From: Halococcoides cellulosivorans
Lineage (GTDB): Archaea > Halobacteriota > Halobacteria > Halobacteriales > Haloarculaceae
NCBI RefSeq assembly: GCF_003058365.1
Contig: NZ_CP028858.1
Location: forward strand, 1,736,001 to 1,800,000
Direction: 5' to 3'
DNA length: 64,000 nucleotides
Part shown: in pieces, positions 1,938 through 52,540 of the stretch
How the letters are laid out: every line of letters starts with the position of its first letter
Position numbering within the stretch: position 1 is the stretch's first letter
The notes under the pieces: model-generated
What the model was told of the DNA's origin: nothing
The model's input: only the letters and a program-made list of their open reading frames with translations
Database searches by the model: none
Position numbers and translations under genes: made by a program

Positions 1938-2198
1938 TTGATCGGTGCGAGACGCGAAAGAAGTTTCAATACCAAACATAACCCATTTTATGCTCTCGGC
2001 AATCAGCTCAATTACGGTGATTCGCGGTCGGAGTGGGTACAAGACGCCATTCGGCTAAAATTGAACATTCTTGAAGCCAAAAGCGGCGAAAAGGCCGACC
2101 AAAGAGTTTACGAGTTCGTCTTCGAACAGTTCAGCGTGAAAAGGACAGACCCCATAAATAATTACTGTTATAATGTTTCCCACAATGTTTTATCATAG
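1938..2198 (+). CDS. Hypothetical protein or gene fragment (ribbon-helix-helix-like piece)
   Basis: This 86-residue frame opens at the border where GC-rich host DNA changes to AT-rich DNA. A central segment, SRSEWVQDAIRLKL, resembles the helix of haloarchaeal ribbon-helix-helix DNA-binding proteins, which usually carry S-E-W-V-R-x-A-I. The N-terminal residues look like read-through of flanking DNA, and no promoter or clear start is seen. The end of the frame (NNYCYNVSHNVLS) looks non-coding. A decayed fragment of a regulator from a lost mobile element is the simplest reading. A real short protein starting later cannot be excluded. Confidence 0.3.
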   Translation: MIGARRERSFNTKHNPFYALGNQLNYGDSRSEWVQDAIRLKLNILEAKSGEKADQRVYEFVFEQFSVKRTDPINNYCYNVSHNVLS

Positions 2199-2228
2199 AT
2201 TAATGTATACCTATATGATTATGAAGTG

Positions 2229-3083
2229 CTATTCAATATCAAATATCTTAGATAGGTCGATCTCAGCCGGTTTTTGCGAAATATCGTCCGGAATGGCTTC
2301 AACTTCTGATGGCTCAAGCCGCGCGATTCCAAATTCAGGAAAATAATTATCTTGATGTAGAGGTGTATTTCTAATGGGTCGTTCGATTCCCACATCAGCT
2401 TCATCCATAATTTTTAATAATTCACGTATATTCATCTGATACTCTTGAAGCTGGCCAGACTTGAGTGCAATAGGTCCAGCAGCCTTTGAAAAATTCAAAG
2501 AGTCTGGATTTGCATTATTCATTGTCCTAATGTGGTTGTATAAGTCTGAATTTGAGATATTCTCCAACAATTCGACCATTTGCGGATCCATGACCCTTCC
2601 ATAGGTGCCCAATACATCCTCAATATCATTAGATAGCTTTTCATGACTTATATTTAACCACTCTATCCAAGGTCTTTTTCCGCTTGTTGAATCTTCTGCA
2701 GACCAATCCGCATTCCCAATAGTTTCTGACAAATCCCGATTATACAATTCAATCCACGTTTGAGGCAATTCACCGAATTTAGTTCTTTTACCTGCAGTAT
2801 ACAGATGTGACATCATAACCAAATGGTCGGCCAGAGATTCACTCAATTGATCTAACGCAATCTGACGAATTTTATTTTCTTTGTTTAGTTCTTTTTTGTA
2901 TAGTTCTCTGCGCACAACTAATGACGTTAAGAAAGACGCAAACAACGCTAAATTGAGTTGTCCCAACATATTTATCACATTTGTAGGCATATATTTGGTG
3001 CCAGCCACCGTAGTGACAAATACCAATATAATTACAGATAAAAGAATGAGATATGGCCTGTCTTCATCATCTAAGAGTGTCAT
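2229..3083 (-). CDS. Two-helix membrane protein of unknown function (AT-rich island)
   Basis: The protein has 284 residues. Two hydrophobic segments, near residues 11-29 and 36-56, are joined by a short loop. They are followed by a long charged, helical cytoplasmic region with no recognised enzyme motif. It ends in an acidic tail. Base composition and codon use are clearly more AT-rich than the neighbours, so recent horizontal acquisition is likely. An AT-rich box (AATTAAAAC on the plus strand at 3109-3117) about 30 bases before the ATG suggests its own leaderless promoter. Small proteins with two helices and a helical cytosolic part occur in accessory and defence loci, but I do not recognise this family. 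Confidence 0.75.
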   Translation of the reverse strand: MTLLDDEDRPYLILLSVIILVFVTTVAGTKYMPTNVINMLGQLNLALFASFLTSLVVRRELYKKELNKENKIRQIALDQLSESLADHLVMMSHLYTAGKRTKFGELPQTWIELYNRDLSETIGNADWSAEDSTSGKRPWIEWLNISHEKLSNDIEDVLGTYGRVMDPQMVELLENISNSDLYNHIRTMNNANPDSLNFSKAAGPIALKSGQLQEYQMNIRELLKIMDEADVGIERPIRNTPLHQDNYFPEFGIARLEPSEVEAIPDDISQKPAEIDLSKIFDIE

Positions 3084-7827: not shown

Positions 7828-7870
7828 CCGCGGACGGGGGTGCCGCGGACGGGGGTGCCGCGGACGGGGA
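7828..7870. repeat. 15-base tandem repeat, nearly three copies
   Basis: The unit CCGCGGACGGGGGTG occurs at 7828-7842 and 7843-7857 without change, and a partial copy runs to 7870. The unit starts with the palindrome CCGCGG. Confidence 0.85.
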
Positions 7871-8202
7871 AACCTGTGGACTCTGGGGAGGGCCGACGCG
7901 CCAGCGGGTCGGTCTCAGGGTTCGACGACGGCACAGGAGTCGCGCCCGGGCCGGTCGACGGAGTGGTCGACGCTGCGATTCTCGAAGCGATCCGATCGGG
8001 GGGTGGTCAGTCCGAACATGGGTACTTCCACGTATGGACCGGTGGTATATATTTTTTCGGGTTCGAGTAAATCCATCGCCAGTCGGTATCATCCGGCCGA
8101 AGTCTTTCGATTTCCCGGATGAAGGTGGCAGAGTGATCGGTCGACCGGTTGCCCGAGGCTGGCCGACTGCTGGCAGAAATCATCGGCAATAGTTGTGACC
8201 AC

Positions 8203-8209
8203 ATCTATT
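8203..8209 (+). promoter_or_regulatory. TATA-like box for the universal stress protein gene
   Basis: TCTATTA is centred about 28 bases before the ATG at 8234. This supports both that start and a leaderless transcript. An in-frame ATG at 8195 would lie upstream of the expected transcript start. Confidence 0.5.
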
Positions 8210-8233
8210 ACCCACCAGAAAGTAGACCACCCC

Positions 8234-9202: not shown

Positions 9203-9999
9203 AGTACAGCGGCTGGCCCGACCCGGGCGAACTGGTCGTCGGGCGGGTCGAGGAGATCGAAGACTTCGGTGTGTTCGTCGACCTCGTCGAGTACGAGGAC
9301 CGCGAAGGCCTCTCGCATATCAGCGAGGTCGCCAGCGGGTGGATCAAAAACGTCCGCGACCACGTCAGCGAAGACCAGCGCGTCGTCGCGAAGGTCCTCG
9401 ACGTCGACACGTCGGCCCAGCAGATCGACCTCTCGCTGAAAGACGTCAACGACCACCAGCGCAAAGACAAGATCCAGGAGTGGAAAAACGAGCAGAAAGC
9501 CGACAACTGGATGGAGTTGGCGTTCGGTGAGGACGTCGACGAGGACACCTACACCGCCGTCGCGAACGCCCTGCTCGCGGAGTTCGGCTCGATGTACGAC
9601 GGGTTCGAACAGGCCGCGATCCACGGCCACGAAGCGCTCGAAGAGAGCGATCTCTCCGAGGATCGGATCGACGCCATCGTCGAGACCGCTCGCGAGAACG
9701 TCTCCGTCCCGTACGTGACGGTCACGGGCTACGTCGACCTGACGAGTGCCGCCCCCGACGGCGTCGAGGTCATTCGCGAGGCCCTGGAGGCCGCCGAGGG
9801 CAACGGCGCAGTGCCCGAGGAGGTCGAACTCGAAGTCACGTACGTCGGATCGCCGGAGTACCGCATCCGCGTCAAAGCGCCCGACTACAAGACCGCCGAA
9901 TCCCACCTCGAAGAGAGCGCCGACCGCGCCGCCGCGAACATCGAGGCGGCGGGCGGCGAGGCGACCTTCCACCGGGACCGACGCTCCGACGAGGAGTAA
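9199..9999 (+). CDS. eif2a: Translation initiation factor aIF2 subunit alpha
   Basis: The 266-residue protein has an N-terminal S1/OB domain (residues about 10-85, with [15 protein letters not shown] and [16 protein letters not shown]). A helical middle domain and a C-terminal alpha/beta domain follow, as in archaeal aIF2-alpha. Together with beta and gamma subunits it forms the GTP-dependent factor that brings initiator tRNA to the ribosome. The length is normal. It sits between rps27e (4-base overlap) and nop10 (1-base gap), the standard archaeal order. Confidence 0.96.
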
Positions 10000-10000
10000 C

Positions 10001-10183
10001 GTGAAATCCGATATTCTGGTCTGTGCGAACTGGGAGACGGTCCACGACCGGCCGGTGTACGCACTCGGTGAGACCTGCCCGGAGTGCGGCGGGCCGACGC
10101 ACAACAGTGCGCCCGCGCCGTTCTCGCCAGAGGATCCCTACGGCGAGTACCGACGCTCACTTAAGCGGCGCAGCCGCGAGTGA
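10001..10183 (+). CDS. nop10: H/ACA RNP protein Nop10
   Basis: A GTG start at 10001, one base after the aIF2-alpha stop, gives 60 residues. The sequence has an N-terminal zinc-binding half (KSDILVCANWETV, then GETCPECG) and a basic tail ending YRRSLKRRSRE. This is the Nop10 pattern, although the first CxxC is reduced to one cysteine. Nop10 binds the Cbf5 pseudouridine synthase in archaeal H/ACA RNA-guided complexes. The position after aIF2-alpha is the usual one in archaea and supports both the call and the unusual start. Confidence 0.92.
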   Translation: MKSDILVCANWETVHDRPVYALGETCPECGGPTHNSAPAPFSPEDPYGEYRRSLKRRSRE

Positions 10184-10187
10184 CGCC

Positions 10188-10943
10188 ATGGAGGAGTTCG
10201 AGGTCGACGTTCTCGCGGAGGTCGAACTGACGGAGCCGGTGCTCGTCGAAGGGCTGCCCGGCGTGGGTCACGTCGGCAAACTCGCCGCCGAGCAGTTGAT
10301 CGAAGAGCTCGACAGTACCTGCGTCCGGCGGGTCCACTCGACGCACTTCCCGCCACAGGTCACCATCGAGGACGGCACCGCCGAGTTGGCGAACGTCGCC
10401 TTTCACGCCATCGAGGTCGAGGACGGGCGCGACCTGCTCGTCCTGACGGGCGACCACCAGGCCCAGGACGGGGAAGGCCACTACGGACTCACCGAGACGA
10501 TCCTCGACGTGGCCGAGGAGTTCGGCGTCGAGACGGCGTTCGCACTCGGTGGCGTCCCGATCGGAGAACTCATCGAGGAGTACGACGTGATCGGCGCGGT
10601 CGCTGACGACGAACTCACCGACGACCTCGAAGCCGTCGGCGTGGAGTTCCGCGACGACGAGCCCGCCGGCGGAATCGTCGGGATTTCGGGGCTTCTTCTG
10701 GGGATCGGAGACCGACGGGGCTTCTCGGCAGCGTGTCTGATGGGCGAGACCAGCGGCTATCTGGTCGACCCCAAGGCCGCCCGAGCCGTCCTGGAGACCC
10801 TCGAAGCGTATCTCGACATCGAGTTGGCCTACGAGTCACTCGAAGAGCGTGCCGACGAGATGGAAGACGTCGTCCGGCGCATCCAGGAGATGGAGCAGGG
10901 GACGCCGACCCCGTCCGACGAAGACCTCCGGTACATCGGCTGA
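10188..10943 (+). CDS. PAC2-family proteasome assembly chaperone-like protein
   Basis: The 251-residue protein belongs to the archaeal PAC2 family (once COG2047). It starts with a strand-rich segment containing LVEGLPGVGHVGKLAAEQLI, then THFPPQV, LVLTGDHQAQ and the ALGGVPIGE and GISGLLLGIG turns. A helical C-terminus ends with a charged coil. Eukaryotic relatives help assemble the 20S proteasome, but the archaeal role is not settled. It closes the rpl44e-rps27e-aIF2-alpha-nop10 operon, starting 4 bases after nop10. Confidence 0.9.
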   Translation: MEEFEVDVLAEVELTEPVLVEGLPGVGHVGKLAAEQLIEELDSTCVRRVHSTHFPPQVTIEDGTAELANVAFHAIEVEDGRDLLVLTGDHQAQDGEGHYGLTETILDVAEEFGVETAFALGGVPIGELIEEYDVIGAVADDELTDDLEAVGVEFRDDEPAGGIVGISGLLLGIGDRRGFSAACLMGETSGYLVDPKAARAVLETLEAYLDIELAYESLEERADEMEDVVRRIQEMEQGTPTPSDEDLRYIG

Positions 10944-10985
10944 TCGATTCTCCGTCAGGAACGCGGCCGGATCGACCGACCGCAC

Positions 10986-12062
10986 TCACTCGCCCGTTCG
11001 CATCAGGTGGCTTCTGAGGATGTCGGCGTCCGAGCGTGCCGTCAGCGGATCGATCACGGCGACGCGATCGGTCGCGTCGAGTGCTCCGTCGGCCCGGAGT
11101 CGTCGGACTGCCGCGAGGCCGACCCCGCCAGCCGTGCTCGTCGCGACACCGTCACGCCGCGCAGTGTCGACCGCCGTCGCGAGCAGGTCGTCGTCGGTGA
11201 CGGCGACGCCGTCCACGACCGCCGCGCGCGTCCGCTCGGGAGCGACGGGATCGGGGATTTCGAGCGCGCCACAGACCGTGTCGGGCCGGTCGACTGGCTC
11301 GCCGTCGACGATCGGCGCACAGCCAGCGGGCTGAGCGGCGTACAGGTCGGGGACGGTCTCGATCGCGCCACAGGCCAGGCAGTCCACGAACCCATCGTCC
11401 AGTGCGATCGGGAGGTGACCGTGGCCGATCGGGACGACGATCGCGTCGAGGTCCGCCCCGGCGAGTTCGACAGCGATCGTTCGGAGGCCGGCGATCCGTC
11501 GGCCCGTCGCGAACGGGGCCAGCGACGCGCCCGGGAGGTCTGCGGTGGCCGCGCGTGCGTCGTCGTATCGACCCTCGACGACACGCATCTCGCCGCCGTA
11601 GACGTTGACCATCGCCTTCGCGTCGAATCGCGATCGGGAGGGCACGACGAGCGTCGCGTCGAGACCCGCCCGGGCCGCCAGCGCGGCGGCCGAGCGCGCA
11701 CCGGGGCCCGGACTCGCGAGGTGGACCGCCTCACTCGTGACTGCCGCGATGGCCGGTGCGAGGCCGCGATCGGTGATCGATCCCGTCGGATTCGCGCCCT
11801 CACGTTTGATCGCGAGGCCAGCGACGTCGAACGCCGCTGCGGTTGCGGGCGCACTCACGAGCGGCGTCCCGCCGATGCCGGCCTCTGTCGGCGGGCCGGA
11901 CTCGACCAGCCAGTCGGTCCAGGGCGAATCGAGCGCGTTCGCACCGCCAGCGGCCTCGATGTCGACCCGCGCGAGTCCACCACAGTCCGGGCAGTCCGAC
12001 GGATCGGAGAGCCTCCGATCACAGTCCCGACACCGATAGCCCGTCGCCAGCGACGCGTTCAT
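10986..12062 (-). CDS. Threonine-synthase-like protein lacking the PLP lysine (probable pseudoenzyme)
   Basis: The start at 12062 gives 358 residues beginning with a rubredoxin-like zinc ribbon (CRDC near 11, CPDC near 24), as in archaeal threonine synthases. The fold-type II core follows. The normal cofactor motif N-P-T-G-S-F-K-D-R-G reads NPTGSITDRG at 91-100, so the lysine that binds pyridoxal phosphate is a threonine at residue 97. The glycine-rich phosphate loop and the later serine motif are also altered (VPIGHGHLP, TSTAGGVGLA). Catalysis as a threonine synthase is unlikely; a binding or regulatory role is possible. It converges with the PAC2 gene. Alternative starts further upstream add only a basic, unlikely extension. 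Confidence 0.8.
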   Translation of the reverse strand: MNASLATGYRCRDCDRRLSDPSDCPDCGGLARVDIEAAGGANALDSPWTDWLVESGPPTEAGIGGTPLVSAPATAAAFDVAGLAIKREGANPTGSITDRGLAPAIAAVTSEAVHLASPGPGARSAAALAARAGLDATLVVPSRSRFDAKAMVNVYGGEMRVVEGRYDDARAATADLPGASLAPFATGRRIAGLRTIAVELAGADLDAIVVPIGHGHLPIALDDGFVDCLACGAIETVPDLYAAQPAGCAPIVDGEPVDRPDTVCGALEIPDPVAPERTRAAVVDGVAVTDDDLLATAVDTARRDGVATSTAGGVGLAAVRRLRADGALDATDRVAVIDPLTARSDADILRSHLMRTGE

Positions 12063-47581: not shown

Positions 47582-47653
47582 GGGCTCGTAGATCAGTGGT
47601 AGATCATCCCCCTGGCACGGGGAAGGCCCCGGGTTCAAATCCCGGCGAGTCCA
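47582..47653 (+). tRNA. tRNA-Ala (anticodon GGC)
   Basis: A 72-base cloverleaf: acceptor GGGCTCG pairs with CGAGTCC (one G-U pair), anticodon stem TCCCC/GGGGA carries loop CTGGCAC, and the T-arm is CCGGG TTCAAAT CCCGG. The discriminator is A. The anticodon GGC reads GCC and GCU alanine codons. Its 3' half from 47632 is the left attachment site of the element that follows; the tRNA itself is intact. Confidence 0.96.
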
Positions 47654-47730
47654 CTCGGCTCACTTCGTTCGCCTCGTTCCCTCGCCGACCTTCGCAAAAT
47701 CGAAGATTTTGCTCAGTCCCGGCGAGTCCA
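47632..47730 (+). repeat. Left attachment repeat (attL), overlapping tRNA-Ala
   Basis: The first 33 bases (47632-47664, starting GGTTCAAATCCCGGCGAGTC) are identical to 51820-51852. Beyond them, TCGTTCCCTCGCCGACCTTC (47674) and GCTCAGTCCCGGCGAGTCCA (47711) also recur at the right end with few changes. A perfect hairpin with an 8-bp stem and GAA loop is at 47694-47712. Confidence 0.9.
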
Positions 47731-48073
47731 TTCGGCTGACGCCGCATCAGCAATCGACACACGGCGTCGGCATCCGACACCTCCTTTATGCCCGTTCCCG
47801 AGAGTTTGAGCGGTCAGTCCGTGCGTCTTGCCGGCTCCAATGGGAGAGGTCGCCTCTCCCGGGTCCGAGCCGTATGGTGGTCGTCACAATTGATTCGTTG
47901 TAGCCGACATATAGAGATTCGGGTACCCAGTTCGCTGTAGCAATTGAAGAATACAGCGGGAAGACGGCCGGAGGACGAGAGAATGGGATTAGAACATCAA
48001 TTGATTCGGCCATTGCTACGGTAACGCAACTCGGTCAAAATATTTTTTGCAGATTTCATCCGCGCGGTAGGCG
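47731..48073. other. Left-end non-coding stretch of the element
   Basis: Between attL and the operon's last gene I see no gene. A possible 75-codon frame on the minus strand (47786-48013) has no protein-like features and no promoter. The last 60 bases are AT-rich and may hold the operon terminator. Confidence 0.5.
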
Positions 48074-48337
48074 TCATGGTGCCGTTGGATTTCTATATTT
48101 AATATAGTAGTCAACATAATCGAGGTCGGATGGATGGGATTCCGCCAACCGAAAGACACCATCAGGGTGTTCATGCATTTGGGTCAGTTCGTAGGCAATG
48201 TTCGATGCCTCCACCTCATCGATGTCCTGTAAGATTATTGTCCCATCTCTACGGCCTGTCTGAATCCCATTTAATAAATCAGTCTCGCCAATCTGGGAAT
48301 AGAAGATAGCTCGTCGCGTTATCTTGACACGGCTCAT
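48074..48337 (-). CDS. Small protein, third gene of the element operon
   Basis: The ATG at 48337 lies one base after the stop of the Abi_C/HEPN-like gene and gives 87 residues; a longer in-frame start would overlap that gene by 77 bases and is less likely. It begins MSRVKITRRAIFYSQIG, basic at first, then acidic, with a predicted mix of two or three strands and helices and a closing segment DLDYVDYYIKYRNP. No family is recognised. Its position suggests a role with the two larger proteins, for example as an immunity or accessory subunit; that is inference. Confidence 0.65.
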   Translation of the reverse strand: MSRVKITRRAIFYSQIGETDLLNGIQTGRRDGTIILQDIDEVEASNIAYELTQMHEHPDGVFRLAESHPSDLDYVDYYIKYRNPTAP

Positions 48338-48338
48338 C

Positions 48339-49313
48339 TTAGAGAATTTGGCGGTGCTCTTTGACACAGTAGTAAATGCTCCGGACAAACGATATTGATG
48401 AGAGGATGACCTCAAGGGCGACCTCAGAATCTACCTGCCACGATTCTAAGGTTTCAGATTCTTTCCCGTGGGCTCCCGGAATACGCATAGCCCCCAGATA
48501 ATTGGCACCGTGTAGATGACGTTTTAAGATTAGTCCGTCTCCGCGCATCATGTTTGCTAAGCTCCCAATGCCATTTGCACGAGTGTAGTCTGAATCAGAG
48601 TCTCCTTCTTCTGTCGCTAATTCACGCGTTATGTTTTCTGCCGCAACGACGGCATCCACAATGGCGCTATCCGGAGATTCTTCGTATGATAGGAGCGCCT
48701 CTTGGAACTTCTCCACACTCTCTTCTTCTGCGTACGCAATTACGTCGCCACCTAATTTTTTGTGGACGAACAAGCGGGCTTTCGCCTCTGACAGGAGGGC
48801 ATCTTGGAGGTCCTTAACATAATCAGTCGGAAGAGTCTCGACCTCGATTGTCGGAACTAAGTCCTCGTCGTCCTCAAGAAGGTCCGACTCTTCACCGATG
48901 CTCAAAAACTGCTTCTTAATGACGTCAACAGACGTGTCCATCTCATAAAGCGTTTTCACAGACTGAGCTGACCGCTCTGCATCAAATCCCTTGTCGAGAA
49001 AGGATAAAAACGTCATAAATGGACTATATCGCTGTGCGTATCGGTTCAAGAGGACAAACCCTTGTTCTGGACTCATCTTTCGGGCTTCTTCTTCCACGTC
49101 GGGAGATGCGCTAAACGACCCATCATTCTCGACAAGAAGACCGAGTTCGAGTCCAAGTTGAATAACGGCCGCTGTGTACGCCTCGCTCATATCGATAATC
49201 TCAGCAATGTCTTCGGTGTCCAACGGCCGAGGCGAAGTTGCAAGGCCAATGACGACCTCGATTAGTGGCTCAGGTTTTACCGCTCGGGAGTGTAGATAGT
49301 AATCCTCATTCAT
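48339..49313 (-). CDS. Winged-helix protein with Abi_C/HEPN-like C-terminus
   Basis: The protein has 324 residues. The first 75 look like a winged helix (LIEVVIGLATSPRPLDTEDIAEIIDMSEAYTAAVI, read as helix-turn-helix). A helical middle follows. The last 120 residues resemble the abortive-infection C-terminal (Abi_C) group: GIGSLANMMRGDGLILKRHL, then MRIPGAHG with arginine 277 and histidine 282 in an R-x4-H spacing like HEPN ribonucleases, and a closing hydrophobic helix. If real, the domain could cleave RNA on viral infection. It starts inside the stop of the upstream gene (ATGA) and is followed by the third gene after one base. The family link is from pattern memory and needs a profile search. 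Confidence 0.75.
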   Translation of the reverse strand: MNEDYYLHSRAVKPEPLIEVVIGLATSPRPLDTEDIAEIIDMSEAYTAAVIQLGLELGLLVENDGSFSASPDVEEEARKMSPEQGFVLLNRYAQRYSPFMTFLSFLDKGFDAERSAQSVKTLYEMDTSVDVIKKQFLSIGEESDLLEDDEDLVPTIEVETLPTDYVKDLQDALLSEAKARLFVHKKLGGDVIAYAEEESVEKFQEALLSYEESPDSAIVDAVVAAENITRELATEEGDSDSDYTRANGIGSLANMMRGDGLILKRHLHGANYLGAMRIPGAHGKESETLESWQVDSEVALEVILSSISFVRSIYYCVKEHRQIL

Positions 49314-50149
49314 CTGTCTTCGTAACTGGTGAGCGTCCGGTGTCCCTCCGATTCCCCATTTTCAGAGGGCGTTTGAGGCTCGGGAACTTCAGCCTCCAGA
49401 CCCTCCCGAACAGCTATTATTAGTTTCTTTACGTTTTCAGGACCTTCATCTCCGGATAAGTCTAAATTGATTGAGAATTGTCCCTCCTTCAATATTTTAC
49501 TCGCAGATGGTTCCTCTTGCGGGTATACACGGACCTCCTCTTCCTGACCATCCACAGACGGTTCTGACTCAGGGGATTGGTCTTGTCTCTCTTCCTTCTC
49601 GTCAGCTATTTCCTCTGTTTGCTTAGTTTCCACCGAGTCACTCTGGCGCTGAGTATCAGCAATTCGGTAGTTACCCCCCTCTGTTTCTATCAGGATACCA
49701 GTCCAAACGAATAGGTCAACGAGGGCCGCAAGTCCAGTCTTTTTCCGAGGAGTTGATGGGTCTGTCTCAGTGATAAATGCAAGCGAATCTATAACTTCAT
49801 CTTTGACCAGCTCACCTGAGCCGATATCGTTAATGAGTTCCTCAGTCACCTCCCACTCATCAAGCAAATCCCTGAGCCCCTCAGCCGCTTCGCCCTCTCG
49901 GTCAAATGCGAGTGCACGGCCTATGTTGTTCCCTGCTTGTAGAAGTCGATAGTCGTGGCCCTCCTTAGAAAGAAGCCCAACATCTGCGAAAAACTTCTTC
50001 TGCCTTCTAATGACGTCCGAACTTGACTCTATCTCTTCCTCCACATCCTCGTCCTCTACCAATTCATCAGTGTCGGCGGCTTCGTAGTATCCCTCGATAA
50101 TCTCCTGTAGCGTGTCGAGACTCGCTTTGGGAACTGGGTGATTTGGCAT
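49310..50149 (-). CDS. DUF5343-like winged-helix protein, first gene of the element operon
   Basis: The ATG at 50149 gives 279 residues beginning MPNHPVPKASLDTLQEIIEG. An AT box 30 bases upstream supports this start over the ATG at 50188. Residues about 1-85 fit a DUF5343-type winged helix (RRQKKFFADVGLLSKEGHDYRLLQAGNNIGRAL, read as helix plus wing). A second winged-helix-like unit spans about 85-170. An acidic, glutamine-rich linker (about 172-225) leads to a short alpha/beta end with FSINLDLSGDEGPENVKKLI. It may be the DNA- or ligand-sensing part of the operon. Its stop overlaps the next gene's start. Confidence 0.75.
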   Translation of the reverse strand: MPNHPVPKASLDTLQEIIEGYYEAADTDELVEDEDVEEEIESSSDVIRRQKKFFADVGLLSKEGHDYRLLQAGNNIGRALAFDREGEAAEGLRDLLDEWEVTEELINDIGSGELVKDEVIDSLAFITETDPSTPRKKTGLAALVDLFVWTGILIETEGGNYRIADTQRQSDSVETKQTEEIADEKEERQDQSPESEPSVDGQEEEVRVYPQEEPSASKILKEGQFSINLDLSGDEGPENVKKLIIAVREGLEAEVPEPQTPSENGESEGHRTLTSYEDR

Positions 50150-50177
50150 TGTGGTAGAAAAGATAGTTCCATGGGGT

Positions 50178-50184
50178 GATAAAA
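50178..50184 (-). promoter_or_regulatory. TATA-like box for the element operon
   Basis: On the minus strand TTTTATC is centred about 32 bases before the ATG at 50149, the spacing of haloarchaeal leaderless promoters. It lies inside the possible N-terminal extension from the ATG at 50188, so it argues against that earlier start. Confidence 0.5.
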
Positions 50185-50728
50185 CCAACGACTCGGTGAC
50201 AGATGGAGGTGTTTGTGGTACATACTACTTCAACTCTTGCCCACAACATGTATCAGATGCATTTGGTGTCTGGGTGACCACCACTACAGTACAGTAGTAT
50301 AGTACCATAACACAGTACGAGGATGAGCGTACGAGTAACATCGGGAAGGTACCCGTAGACACAAGACCATACTAACCAGTACGGTGAACCGTAGGAGTAT
50401 CAAAGACGGCACAGCAGCAGATAGCAGGCCAGAGAACAGGCATTACAGTCGGGGACAAAGCACTCAAACCCGTACTCACAGCCCCGCTTTCTATCAGAGC
50501 CACGGACAGGCTTGTGATGCGGTTTTAAGTGGAAGATGACCAATCACCTATTGGTAAGTAAGAAGCCAGCCACGAGCGATTCTGTGGCCTCTGAGAGCAT
50601 CTCGTGCTAGCAGCAGACTTCGGGATTCAGCGGCTGTCTGGACAATTTACCGTCGAAGCGTTGGTCACTGTTCTCTGAATCTCTGGTGACCGGTCACTAC
50701 ATCAGAAAACCGACAGAATGGATGGACT
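50185..50728. other. Non-coding region between operon and integrase with GTAC array
   Basis: No gene is seen in about 540 bases. GTAC occurs six times at 50289, 50302, 50315, 50329, 50349 and 50379; the first four are 13-14 bases apart. An AT box TTTTAAG near 50523 points to the right but no gene follows. This is the natural place for the control region or origin of the element. Confidence 0.6.
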
Positions 50729-51739
50729 TTACAGGTCTTCGAGGTACCGCCGACGGGTGTCCATCTGTTCGGCCTTGTTCCGTCGGTCGTAGTGGGCGTC
50801 GAGTACCTCACGGCTCACGTTCATCCGCTCCGAGGCGACGTCCTTCGGCTTCCCGAGGTTGAGCATGTGGGTTATCGCACCCTTCCGCAGTGCATGAGGG
50901 GACACCGAGGATGGGCACTTGCTTGCCGTGTTGTAATCGCCAGCTTCGCAGGTGTCCGGTGACCGGTCATGTGGACACTGGGCACCGAAGTGGCACGGTC
51001 AAGTGACTGTGTAGATGTTCCGCTGAAGCGTGGTTTTCGCCGGCCGGCCGCTTCCCGTTGAAAACAGTGGCTCGCGCCCGTAGTCGTCAAGGCAGCCAGA
51101 CCTGTGCATGTCTACGAAGTCGCTCAGGACGTCGCAGAGGTCGTCCTTGATGTAGACGTCACGTTCACCGTTTGCTTTGTTCTTGAGCGGCGTGCCTGTC
51201 TCAGGGCGGTGTCGGAGCATGAGCGTGTTCCGGTCCGGGTCGAAGTCTCCGAGGTCGAGTGACCGGAGTGAGCCACTCCGCATGCCAGTGTGCCAGAGGG
51301 TGTAGAACACCGCGTGTCGAAATGAGGCATACTCGTACTTGTTCAGGTACTCCAGCATAGCGTCTGCTTCCTCGGAGGTGATGTACGTCTCGTTCACCTC
51401 GTCGGCGGTGGACACCTCGGGCACGGCGACCTTCTCGTTGAGTCCCGCACGGACTGCGTCAATCTTCTTGCAGAACCGGAGGAACTTCTTTAGATTCCAG
51501 AGGTTGCCCCGGAGGGTCACCTGCTTAACTTCCTCGGCGCGGTCCATCCGGAAGTTTATCACTGTGCGCCCGGTCACGTCGTTCATGTTGTCGATGCCTT
51601 CCTGTTGGCACCAGTCGGTAAACGCCGCGAGGTCGTACTTGTAGTTCTGTAGGCTATTCTTGGACAGCTCGTTTTCGCGGCTGGTCAGGTACATCTCTAC
51701 AGCGCGGTCCGGTGCAATCGGGTCGAGTTGGTCCGTCAT
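50729..51739 (-). pseudogene. Tyrosine recombinase (integrase) gene with in-frame TGA
   Basis: The frame from the ATG at 51739 encodes an XerC/D-type integrase but meets TGA at 50999-51001 after residue 246. Reading on in the same frame gives 88 more residues to TAA at 50729-50731, with the expected C-terminus: a cysteine-rich insert (PCHFGAQC), SPHALRKGAITHML with the H-x-L-R residues, and the tyrosine in DAHYDRRNK. The N-terminal part has the SAM-like core-binding domain and the first catalytic arginine in WHTGMRSGSLRSL. A single C-to-T change in a CGA arginine codon explains the stop. The truncated product lacks the catalytic tyrosine. It lies next to the right attachment site. Confidence 0.88.
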
Positions 51740-52059
51740 GGTGGTTTGCTCCTGTAGACAACCACCATCACAGCCCGAGCATCAGCCGGAGCGGCGAGCG
51801 GAGCGAGCCGCAGGCCTCCGGTTCAAATCCCGGCGAGTCCACTCGGCTCACTGCGTTCGCTCAGTCGTTCCCTCGCCGACCTTCGCGAAGCCTTCGGCTT
51901 CGCTCAGTCCCGGTGAGTCCATCGGAGCGACCGAGTTTTACGAGGGAGCGAGAATGGACGAGCCGAGCGTAAGCGCAGCGAACGCGTGGATTTTGAAAAC
52001 GAATCCGCGTCGGCCTGGCCAAACTGTTAAGACTGTCAGTGCTGTACGTTCTGGTAGCA
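51740..52059. other. Intergenic region holding attR and TA-pair promoter
   Basis: The region between the integrase start and the toxin-antitoxin pair holds the right attachment repeat (51820-51921). It also holds a GC-rich stretch of no clear content and an AT box (GTTAAGA near 52027) about 30 bases before the antitoxin ATG. No other gene is visible. Confidence 0.6.
51820..51921 (+). repeat. Right attachment repeat (attR)
   Basis: Bases 51820-51852 are identical to the tRNA-Ala 3' end and its flank (47632-47664). The next 70 bases match the left flank with changes and one short insertion. A perfect 8-bp hairpin with loop TTC at 51885-51903 takes the place of the left end's hairpin with different stem sequence. 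Confidence 0.9.
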
Positions 52060-52254
52060 ATGTCAGCCGACAAGCGGATCCCCGTCACCGAGGAAACCCG
52101 GAAAGAGCTTCACGACCTCAAGGAGCCAGGGCAGACGTACGACGATCTACTCCAGGAGTTGGCTCAACAGCGACGACGAGAAGACCTCGAACAGCGGTTT
52201 CAAGACCTCGAAGACGCTGACAGTGACGAGTTGACGGCGCTCGACGATGTCTGA
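52060..52254 (+). CDS. Antitoxin-like protein of a RelE-type pair
   Basis: The ATG at 52060 gives 64 residues; a start at 52039 is possible but weaker. The N-terminal half (MSADKRIPVTEETRKELHDLKEPGQTYDDLLQEL, read as strand, helix, helix) fits small haloarchaeal VapB/RelB-like antitoxins that bind DNA as dimers. The acidic C-terminal tail would wrap the toxin. Its stop lies inside the first codons of the toxin gene (8-base overlap), so they are co-translated. The pair probably autoregulates its own promoter. Confidence 0.8.
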   Translation: MSADKRIPVTEETRKELHDLKEPGQTYDDLLQELAQQRRREDLEQRFQDLEDADSDELTALDDV

Positions 52255-52540
52255 ATACGATGTCCTCCTCGGCGACGACGCCAGCGCCTTTCTCGATGCC
52301 GCCGACGAAAAGACCGAGCGGATTTGTACGGAAAAACTGTCGTTTCTGACGGAAAACCCCTATCCGGGTCGCGGCCAGGGTGACAAAGAGAAACTCCCGA
52401 TCGATGGCCGTCGCGACCGGTTTCGATTGCACATCTCCCGGAGCTACACCGCGATCTACACCGTCCTGGAGGACGCGGGTGAGGTTCGAGTCCTCGAAAT
52501 CGTCCCGATCGACGAGGCGCACAAGCGGTATGGGTTTTGA
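52247..52540 (+). CDS. RelE/ParE-family toxin
   Basis: The 97-residue protein has the RelE fold pattern: a first strand (MSEYDVLLGDDA), two helices (AFLDAADEKTERICTEKLSFL), a loop with NPYPGRGQGDKEKL, then strands RRDRFRLHISRSYTAIYTVL and VRVLEIVPIDEAHKRYGF. RelE toxins cut mRNA on the ribosome. Basic residues at the usual positions (R in RDRFRLH, K and R near the end) are present. It is coupled to the antitoxin gene. The pair lies just outside attR and may be left from an earlier insertion. Confidence 0.88.
   Translation: MSEYDVLLGDDASAFLDAADEKTERICTEKLSFLTENPYPGRGQGDKEKLPIDGRRDRFRLHISRSYTAIYTVLEDAGEVRVLEIVPIDEAHKRYGF

Follow-up and report, generated by a model that had tools for sequence, protein, structure and literature searches.

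Small integrated elements are a familiar part of archaeal genomes. The cryptic elements surveyed by Krupovic et al. 2019 (PMC6563490) carry an integrase, are bounded by direct repeats and often reside in a tRNA gene, the smallest of that survey being a 2.6 kb element that encodes an integrase, a winged helix-turn-helix (wHTH) protein and two hypothetical proteins. Archaeal tyrosine recombinases prefer tRNA 3′ ends and restore an intact tRNA (PMC8371274), and tRNA-Ala and tRNA-His genes harbor prophages in the haloarchaeon Haloquadratum walsbyi (PMC3119063). Here, we describe an island of the same ordinary, already known kind in Halococcoides cellulosivorans, whose single-contig genome comprises 2.72 Mb and is marked as haloarchaeal by GC content, acidic proteins and named relatives. 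Our study region, the window, is a 64 kb stretch of that genome (G000:C1:1736001-1800000), of which positions 47632-51921 are, by their anatomy, an integrated cargo island at the tRNA-Ala(GGC) gene of this haloarchaeon. The island measures ~4.2 kb, and its four genes, which encode P1, P2, P3 and a tyrosine recombinase, are all read from the minus strand. Its P3-P2 pair recurs in other genomes, and this cargo rather probably constitutes a new toxin or defense module built around a HEPN ribonuclease (RNase).

Integration site and island boundaries

The target gene, a tRNA-Ala(GGC) called by ARAGORN (47582..47654, plus strand), is intact after integration. As the preliminary description had stated, an exact 33-base direct repeat that begins in the tRNA 3′ half can be read off the sequence (47632-47664 and 51820-51852). 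Its left copy, the core of the left attachment (att) site attL (47632..47664, plus strand), covers the T-arm, the acceptor 3′ strand and ~11 nt beyond, and in relatives the att site consists of this tRNA's final 30 nt; the right copy, the attR core (51820..51852, plus strand), is by sequence and repeat alignment the displaced 3′ end of tRNA-Ala. Extended without gaps, the repeat reaches 49 nt (47624-47672 and 51812-51860; 46/49 alike, 94%), and after a 3-nt shift similarity resumes for 58 nt at 83% (47674-47731 and 51865-51922), so that the imperfect similarity of ~70 bases reported beyond the repeat reappeared upon aligning both ends. A chance origin of the 33-base repeat can be ruled out, because other exact repeats of at least 26 bases occur in the window only at ~634-697 and ~7828-7870. 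Direct repeats made of a duplicated tRNA 3′ end, next to a tRNA left intact, are what marks an element of the tyrosine-recombinase type. The interior was also correctly described as lower in GC: 52% in 47732-51819 and 49% in the operon (48074-50152), as compared to 66% in the remaining window. A further low-GC stretch (38%) lies at window positions 2001-3000.

The integrase is broken. Its 5′ part (246 aa; 50999..51739, minus strand) contains an N-terminal SAM-like domain and the first catalytic region, both recognized by Pfam and PHROGs, in keeping with the integrase predicted earlier. That prediction had missed an in-frame TGA at 50999-51001, located before the second catalytic half. In the same frame past the stop, the 3′ part (50735..50998, minus strand) bears the HxxR and Tyr region, where the C-terminal ends of Phage_integrase and phrog_1 match weakly. 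We take the first fragment to retain the first catalytic arginine, with the HxxR and the tyrosine falling past the TGA; no single frame of this island holds both catalytic halves, which activity, though not origin, would require. A genome search reading through the stop aligned the protein with the integrase of a relative, genome G016, at 46% identity over residues 3-334, with one TGA inside. Because the TGA splits the integrase, this copy of the island is probably fixed, and immobile unless helped in trans. The broad integrase kind was found in 123 of 146 family genomes (E<=0.001), and intact relatives are present in many genomes. When the G016 integrase was searched within the family, the window integrase was the third-best place, and a tRNA-Ala 3′ piece was found in the flanks of 12 of the 30 loci so fetched, the window locus included.

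The window genus is represented by one genome and the site was compared across genera, with genes at the relatives' loci called by a composition heuristic that may miss genes or misplace starts. A comparison of the flanking genes with those of other genera revealed no clear synteny. The G016 island that contains the integrase relative measures 7.3 kb, is likewise located at tRNA-Ala(GGC) and carries a P3-P2 pair; its att repeat is an exact 30 nt, the last 30 nt of the tRNA. In G008, from the same genus as G016, the chromosomal flanks are the same (by gene lengths and sequence starts), the integrase is 97% identical to that of G016 and a 618-aa protein is the counterpart of a 616-aa protein of G016, but two other genes replace P3-P2. 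G008 further holds a second integrase island in tandem, the two together occupying L084 3576-11949, with tRNA tails at 8191-8220 and 11920-11949, the latter with 5 mismatches. Shared flanks and backbone with different cargo, together with tandem islands, therefore identify tRNA-Ala(GGC), at the level of sequence comparison, as an integration hot spot with cargo exchange. Re-use of the site, which the preliminary description had proposed, is real in another genome, G008, though the additional repeats from which it had been argued do not show it. From the anatomy and the relatives, a tyrosine recombinase would have joined the attachment site of the island to the 3′ end of tRNA-Ala(GGC), so that a complete tRNA remained on the left side and the displaced 3′ end came to lie on the right.

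Consistent with the earlier statement, no capsid, replication or conjugation genes were recognized among the island proteins by Pfam and PHROGs. A virus satellite, one of two identities suggested for the island, was rejected, as neither resource revealed a packaging, capsid-interfering or replication gene in it. No relatives of the island were found in phage records, and in a plasmid search P1-P3 gave no match, the only matches being a stretch of the integrase, a short tRNA-flank stretch and a relB/relE-like pair. The latter (window 52042-52540), whose DNA is 76% identical to Haloarcula plasmid DNA, lies just outside the right repeat and precedes the ribosomal L11 operon.

The P3-P2 pair and its possible function

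The tight operon noted at the outset holds up: the P3 and P2 genes share an ATGA overlap, and the P1 start follows the P2 stop by a few bases. P3 (~280 aa; 49310..50152, minus strand) would comprise, by profile match and model, an Sso10a-type winged helix, a linker and a conserved C-terminal segment; its profile matches Sso10a (PDB 1r7j) at E 5.4e-4. P2 (324 aa; 48339..49313, minus strand) combines, according to the alignment of relatives and a structure model, an N-terminal winged helix with a C-terminal HEPN-like bundle and the motif R277-x4-H282. P1 (48074..48334, minus strand; placed by frames and Pfam) has 86 aa from an ATG behind the P2 stop, or as many as 113 aa if an upstream TTG serves as the start, and no relatives beyond its own genome (1/142 family genomes).

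P2 is rare: it was found in 4/146 genomes of the family, 11/392 of the order and 6/392 of the phylum, and a scan of genome contigs gave two loci, in Halovenus aranensis and Halorubrum sp. Boch-26. Eleven loci encode a full-length P2 (the window, G016, G097, G389, G433, G421, G284, G292, G249, G752 and G657); G091, G188 and G536, with fragments or weak matches only, were left out of the pair count. A P3-like gene is adjacent to P2 in 11/11, albeit of divergent size and orientation in G292 and G249, short as called in G097 and broken in G389. Four of the pairs sit in repeat-bounded islands at tRNA-Ala, tRNA-Gly or tRNA-Ser. The G389 island, at tRNA-Gly(CCC), has an integrase, P3 and P2 with no other gene called, its limits being a 57-nt 5′ piece of the tRNA and the intact tRNA. 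That of G433 lies between two tRNA-Ser(TGA) copies (85-nt exact repeat) and also contains a Prim-Pol gene. Both integrases match Phage_integrase, with no BLASTP match to the window integrase at 1e-3. Read from these loci, the P3-P2 pair moves between tRNA sites with unrelated integrases. In G657, the pair lies ~1 kb beyond, and outside, a 45-nt repeat of tRNA-Ala(GGC). As to neighbors, the G284 pair adjoins Cas1, Cas4, Cas6 and Cas8b, and the G097 pair a type II methylase and a type II restriction enzyme. An XPB/PbeA-like helicase is encoded directly upstream of P3-P2 or P2 in G284 and G249 (L111 6743-8677, L113 7977-9866). In at least G413 and G161, a P3-like gene adjoins an apparent HerA-type ATPase, and in L207 1501-3744 and L209 1501-3792 it is flanked by a ~138-aa gene and such an ATPase (all by eye); the HerA-type neighbor is a possible partner swap of P3.

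Is P2 a HEPN protein? R277 and H282 are invariant in 9/9 aligned sequences, with a spacing of Rx4H or Rx5H that falls within the Rx4-6H motif of the HEPN superfamily, and inspection by eye showed both residues in the proteins of G752 and G657 as well. The P2 model (9 sequences) has a predicted local distance difference test (pLDDT) score of 80.7 and a predicted template modeling (pTM) score of 0.50; it places the winged helix at the N-terminus and a helical bundle at the C-terminus (197-319), where R277 lies at one helix end and H282 in the loop preceding the last helix. Upon structure realignment, the top three rows, all of which span residues ~188-321, were 1ufb (Z 11.6, root-mean-square deviation (rmsd) 4.1 over 121 residues), 2hsb, titled HEPN (Z 11.4, rmsd 4.6 over 123 residues), and 3o10, titled HEPN, sacsin (Z 11.2, rmsd 4.0 over 125 residues); 1ufb, too, is presumably a HEPN structure. 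By these best structural matches, the modeled P2 C-terminus resembles a HEPN domain, and it bears the Rx4-6H motif. Searches of P2 and P3 against Pfam, PHROGs, PADLOC and NCBIfam returned nothing above cut-off where one is given and marginal matches otherwise, and the P3-P2 pair is absent from these libraries.

We favor the following scenario. The payload is a translationally coupled pair, in which P3, an Sso10a-type winged-helix protein, would most likely bind DNA together with P2 and restrain or trigger it. When a virus infects the cell or the module is lost, the HEPN-like domain of P2 would cleave RNA and bring the cell to a halt. The module would accordingly be of the abortive-infection or toxin-antitoxin (TA) type, carried among tRNA sites by unrelated integrases. 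The relatives' loci, the P2 realignment and the neighbors make the cargo look defense-like, and this half of the earlier suggestion of a satellite or defense island survives. Provided that P2 is an RNase, P3-P2 would be a toxin or defense pair of archaea as yet without a name, one that extends from haloarchaea to other families of the phylum, in a field that is poorly charted (PMC12988326).

Several observations weigh against this scenario. The motif loop (281-290) is modeled at pLDDT <50, and helical bundles with Z below ~13 can share an arrangement without kinship. When P2 was searched with Foldseek alone, winged-helix and methyltransferase chains predominated and no match reached E<=0.001; HEPN was seen in the realignment only. 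The Pfam matches of relatives are weak and below cut-off (DUF4145 for the G657 protein; HEPN_RiboL-PSP and DUF4145 for a short P2-like protein of G188), and PADLOC (2023) models gave nothing or marginal matches only (E >= 0.006) for P2 and P3. P2 relatives were searched for in viral contigs and none was found; known defense genes stand beside only 2/11 P2 loci by neighbor scoring. The P3 model is poor (pLDDT 55.9). P3-like proteins, far more widespread than P2, occur in 55/382 order genomes, many of them long and without P2; P3 alone is therefore no pointer to defense.

The main rival reading holds the island to be the degenerate remnant of a cryptic plasmid or provirus, with P2 and P3 as initiator-like winged-helix regulators of its transcription or replication and the HEPN-like domain as a structural one. 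The resemblance of P3 to DNA-binding Sso10a and the Prim-Pol gene of the G433 island would fit, as would the proposal of a wHTH protein of a cryptic integrated element as replication initiator (PMC6563490). Yet the pair recurs with unrelated integrases and at loci without a called integrase gene, the Rx4-6H motif is invariant and Pfam and PHROGs detect no viral or plasmid hallmark, which leaves this explanation unlikely in our view. Alternatively, the pair might be an addiction module that stabilizes islands and confers no virus resistance. Two coupled genes within minimal islands are what such a module would look like, and HEPN toxins are known from TA pairs; however, pairs beside CRISPR-Cas or restriction-modification genes would be left unexplained, even if two cases are few. 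We regard addiction as unlikely, and a HEPN-RNase toxin or defense module as the better account of the cargo.

Palindromic tRNA trailers

The strangest and least explained part of the locus is found at its edges. Besides the att cores, additional copies of CCCGG(C/T)GAGTCCA can be read at both island ends, which had been taken to suggest two nested attachment events. Each copy belongs to a palindromic trailer cassette. The left one (47655..47731, plus strand) ends in TCCCGGCGAGTCCAT, has a hairpin with 6/6 pairs and a tail one mismatch away from the tRNA's own; the right one (51853..51921, plus strand), on the chromosomal side, ends in TCCCGGTGAGTCCA and matches other tRNA-Ala trailers. The core of a cassette is a hairpin, GACCnTCGC-stem-loop-stem-GCTCAGTC, followed by the tRNA tail.

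As the same trailer follows tRNA-Ala genes elsewhere, the additional copies need not mean nested attachment of this element, and that suggestion lacks support in the form in which it was argued. Compared with the first 78 bases past 27 tRNA-Ala genes, which lie in loci that BLAST had picked with the right flank as query, the right copy had 41-68 matches (56-68 in 20/27); random window pieces gave a median of 44 and a maximum of 74, the maximum being taken as a draw overlapping the repeats, which were not excluded. The tRNA-Ala trailer is present in other genomes; within the family, P2 itself was found in just 4/146. In the G016 island, a cassette occupies the chromosomal side (63/76 against the window right copy) and is absent from the island side, where 42/67 and 41/59 are at chance level. 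Sequence comparison thus identifies the right-hand similarity of ~75 nt as the chromosome's own tRNA-Ala trailer. As for the left cassette, the island's own attachment site (attP) may have carried one, or the chromosomal site may have held two in tandem, as some tRNA-Ala genes do.

The cassettes are neither restricted to this locus nor to tRNA-Ala. The pattern occurs 8 times in the own genome, against 2 in a reversed control: two behind tRNA-Ala(CGC), one behind tRNA-Glu(CTC), one behind tRNA-Arg(TCG), two at the island, one inside a cluster of 15 tRNAs and one away from any tRNA. The cluster itself packs its 15 tRNA genes, a second tRNA-Ala(GGC) among them, into ~2.6 kb (L150 3122-5764; G000:C1 ~2.635-2.638 Mb), with queC/queE-type genes, identified by eye, nearby (9425-10985); the region is possibly a provirus or otherwise acquired. 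Trailer cassettes were also observed at L009 8342-8863 and L122-L140, and in the trailers of tRNA-Arg, -Lys, -Asp, -Glu and -Gly genes the hairpin leads into the 3′ tail of the resident tRNA itself. A tRNA gene was present in 17 of 19 non-Ala hairpin loci (L122-L140, which BLAST had retrieved with a piece of the cassette as query); in L124 the hairpin is not downstream of the tRNA.

With a pattern that ignored the tail, we obtained 24 distinct hairpin-like rows, 15 of them with a same-strand tRNA <=1 kb upstream, and 12 of these 15 had the tRNA's own tail at <=2 mismatches (27, 18 and 13, respectively, before removing three duplicate rows). The tails of the other three had 3, 6 and 8 mismatches, the last in the tRNA cluster. 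Of 228 comparisons with the tails of other tRNAs (duplicates included), 8 gave <=2 mismatches, and among non-hairpin rows of the set a tRNA was found in 0/13. The stems co-vary: 30 of 36 distinct 32-mers, drawn from all fetched loci, some of which were fetched by cassette similarity, show perfect pairing at all six positions, with 12 distinct stems among them, as compared to a mean of 3.7 and a maximum of 13 perfect pairings for shuffled stem partners.

What are these cassettes? They may be arm sites or scars of a recombinase, they may represent a miniature mobile element, or the trailer may function as RNA. Conceivably, earlier islands in this site, acquired by nested or tandem integration and subsequently lost, left the additional core repeats behind as scars; the two tandem islands of G008 and the arrays of repeated tRNA 3′ ends behind several tRNA-Ala genes are in line with this. 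Nevertheless, tRNA-Ala genes across genera have this cassette, 14-nt tail included, as their trailer, and like palindromes stand behind other tRNAs; the cassette is therefore older than this island or derives from another process, and we consider the scar explanation doubtful. A broader idea, that the cassettes are recombinase-mobilized miniature elements or attachment arms forming integron-like landing arrays, with the wHTH/HEPN island as one occupant, appears improbable at present. If confirmed, the trailer palindromes would bear on how tRNA genes become, and remain, integration hot spots. Att-like repeats behind haloarchaeal tRNAs are, by themselves, no proof of nested insertions.

Comparison with described elements and HEPN modules

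Our literature search, which covered few subscription journals, found neither a wHTH/HEPN pair like P3-P2 nor tRNA-trailer palindromes with own tails, and no palindromic cassettes repeating each tRNA's own tail were met in the accessible part of the work on archaeal tyrosine recombinases (PMC8371274). With the Haloquadratum walsbyi elements (PMC3119063), the island shares tRNA-Ala as integration site and, with the tRNA-His island, a displaced tRNA 3′ end as right repeat; those prophages, however, are virus-like and ~20-50 kb long, whereas the present island has 4.2 kb and no viral genes. The cryptic integrated elements (PMC6563490) come closer in lacking virus and conjugation genes as well. 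That survey concerned Thaumarchaeota, and the window island differs by its recurring coupled wHTH/HEPN-like pair and its stop-split integrase.

With respect to its cargo, the island is reminiscent of the HEPN superfamily toxins (Anantharaman et al. 2013) and of HEPN-MNT pairs, with which it has in common a modeled HEPN-like bundle, the Rx4-6H motif and the layout of a two-gene mobile module. In HEPN-MNT pairs, the partner is a nucleotidyltransferase, for which no match was found among the island proteins; the partner of P2 is instead the winged-helix protein P3, and P2 has an N-terminal winged helix of its own. No known family matched P3-P2 above cut-off. In this comparison, P3-P2 would extend the HEPN modules by a new variant, carried by an element of an otherwise familiar kind.

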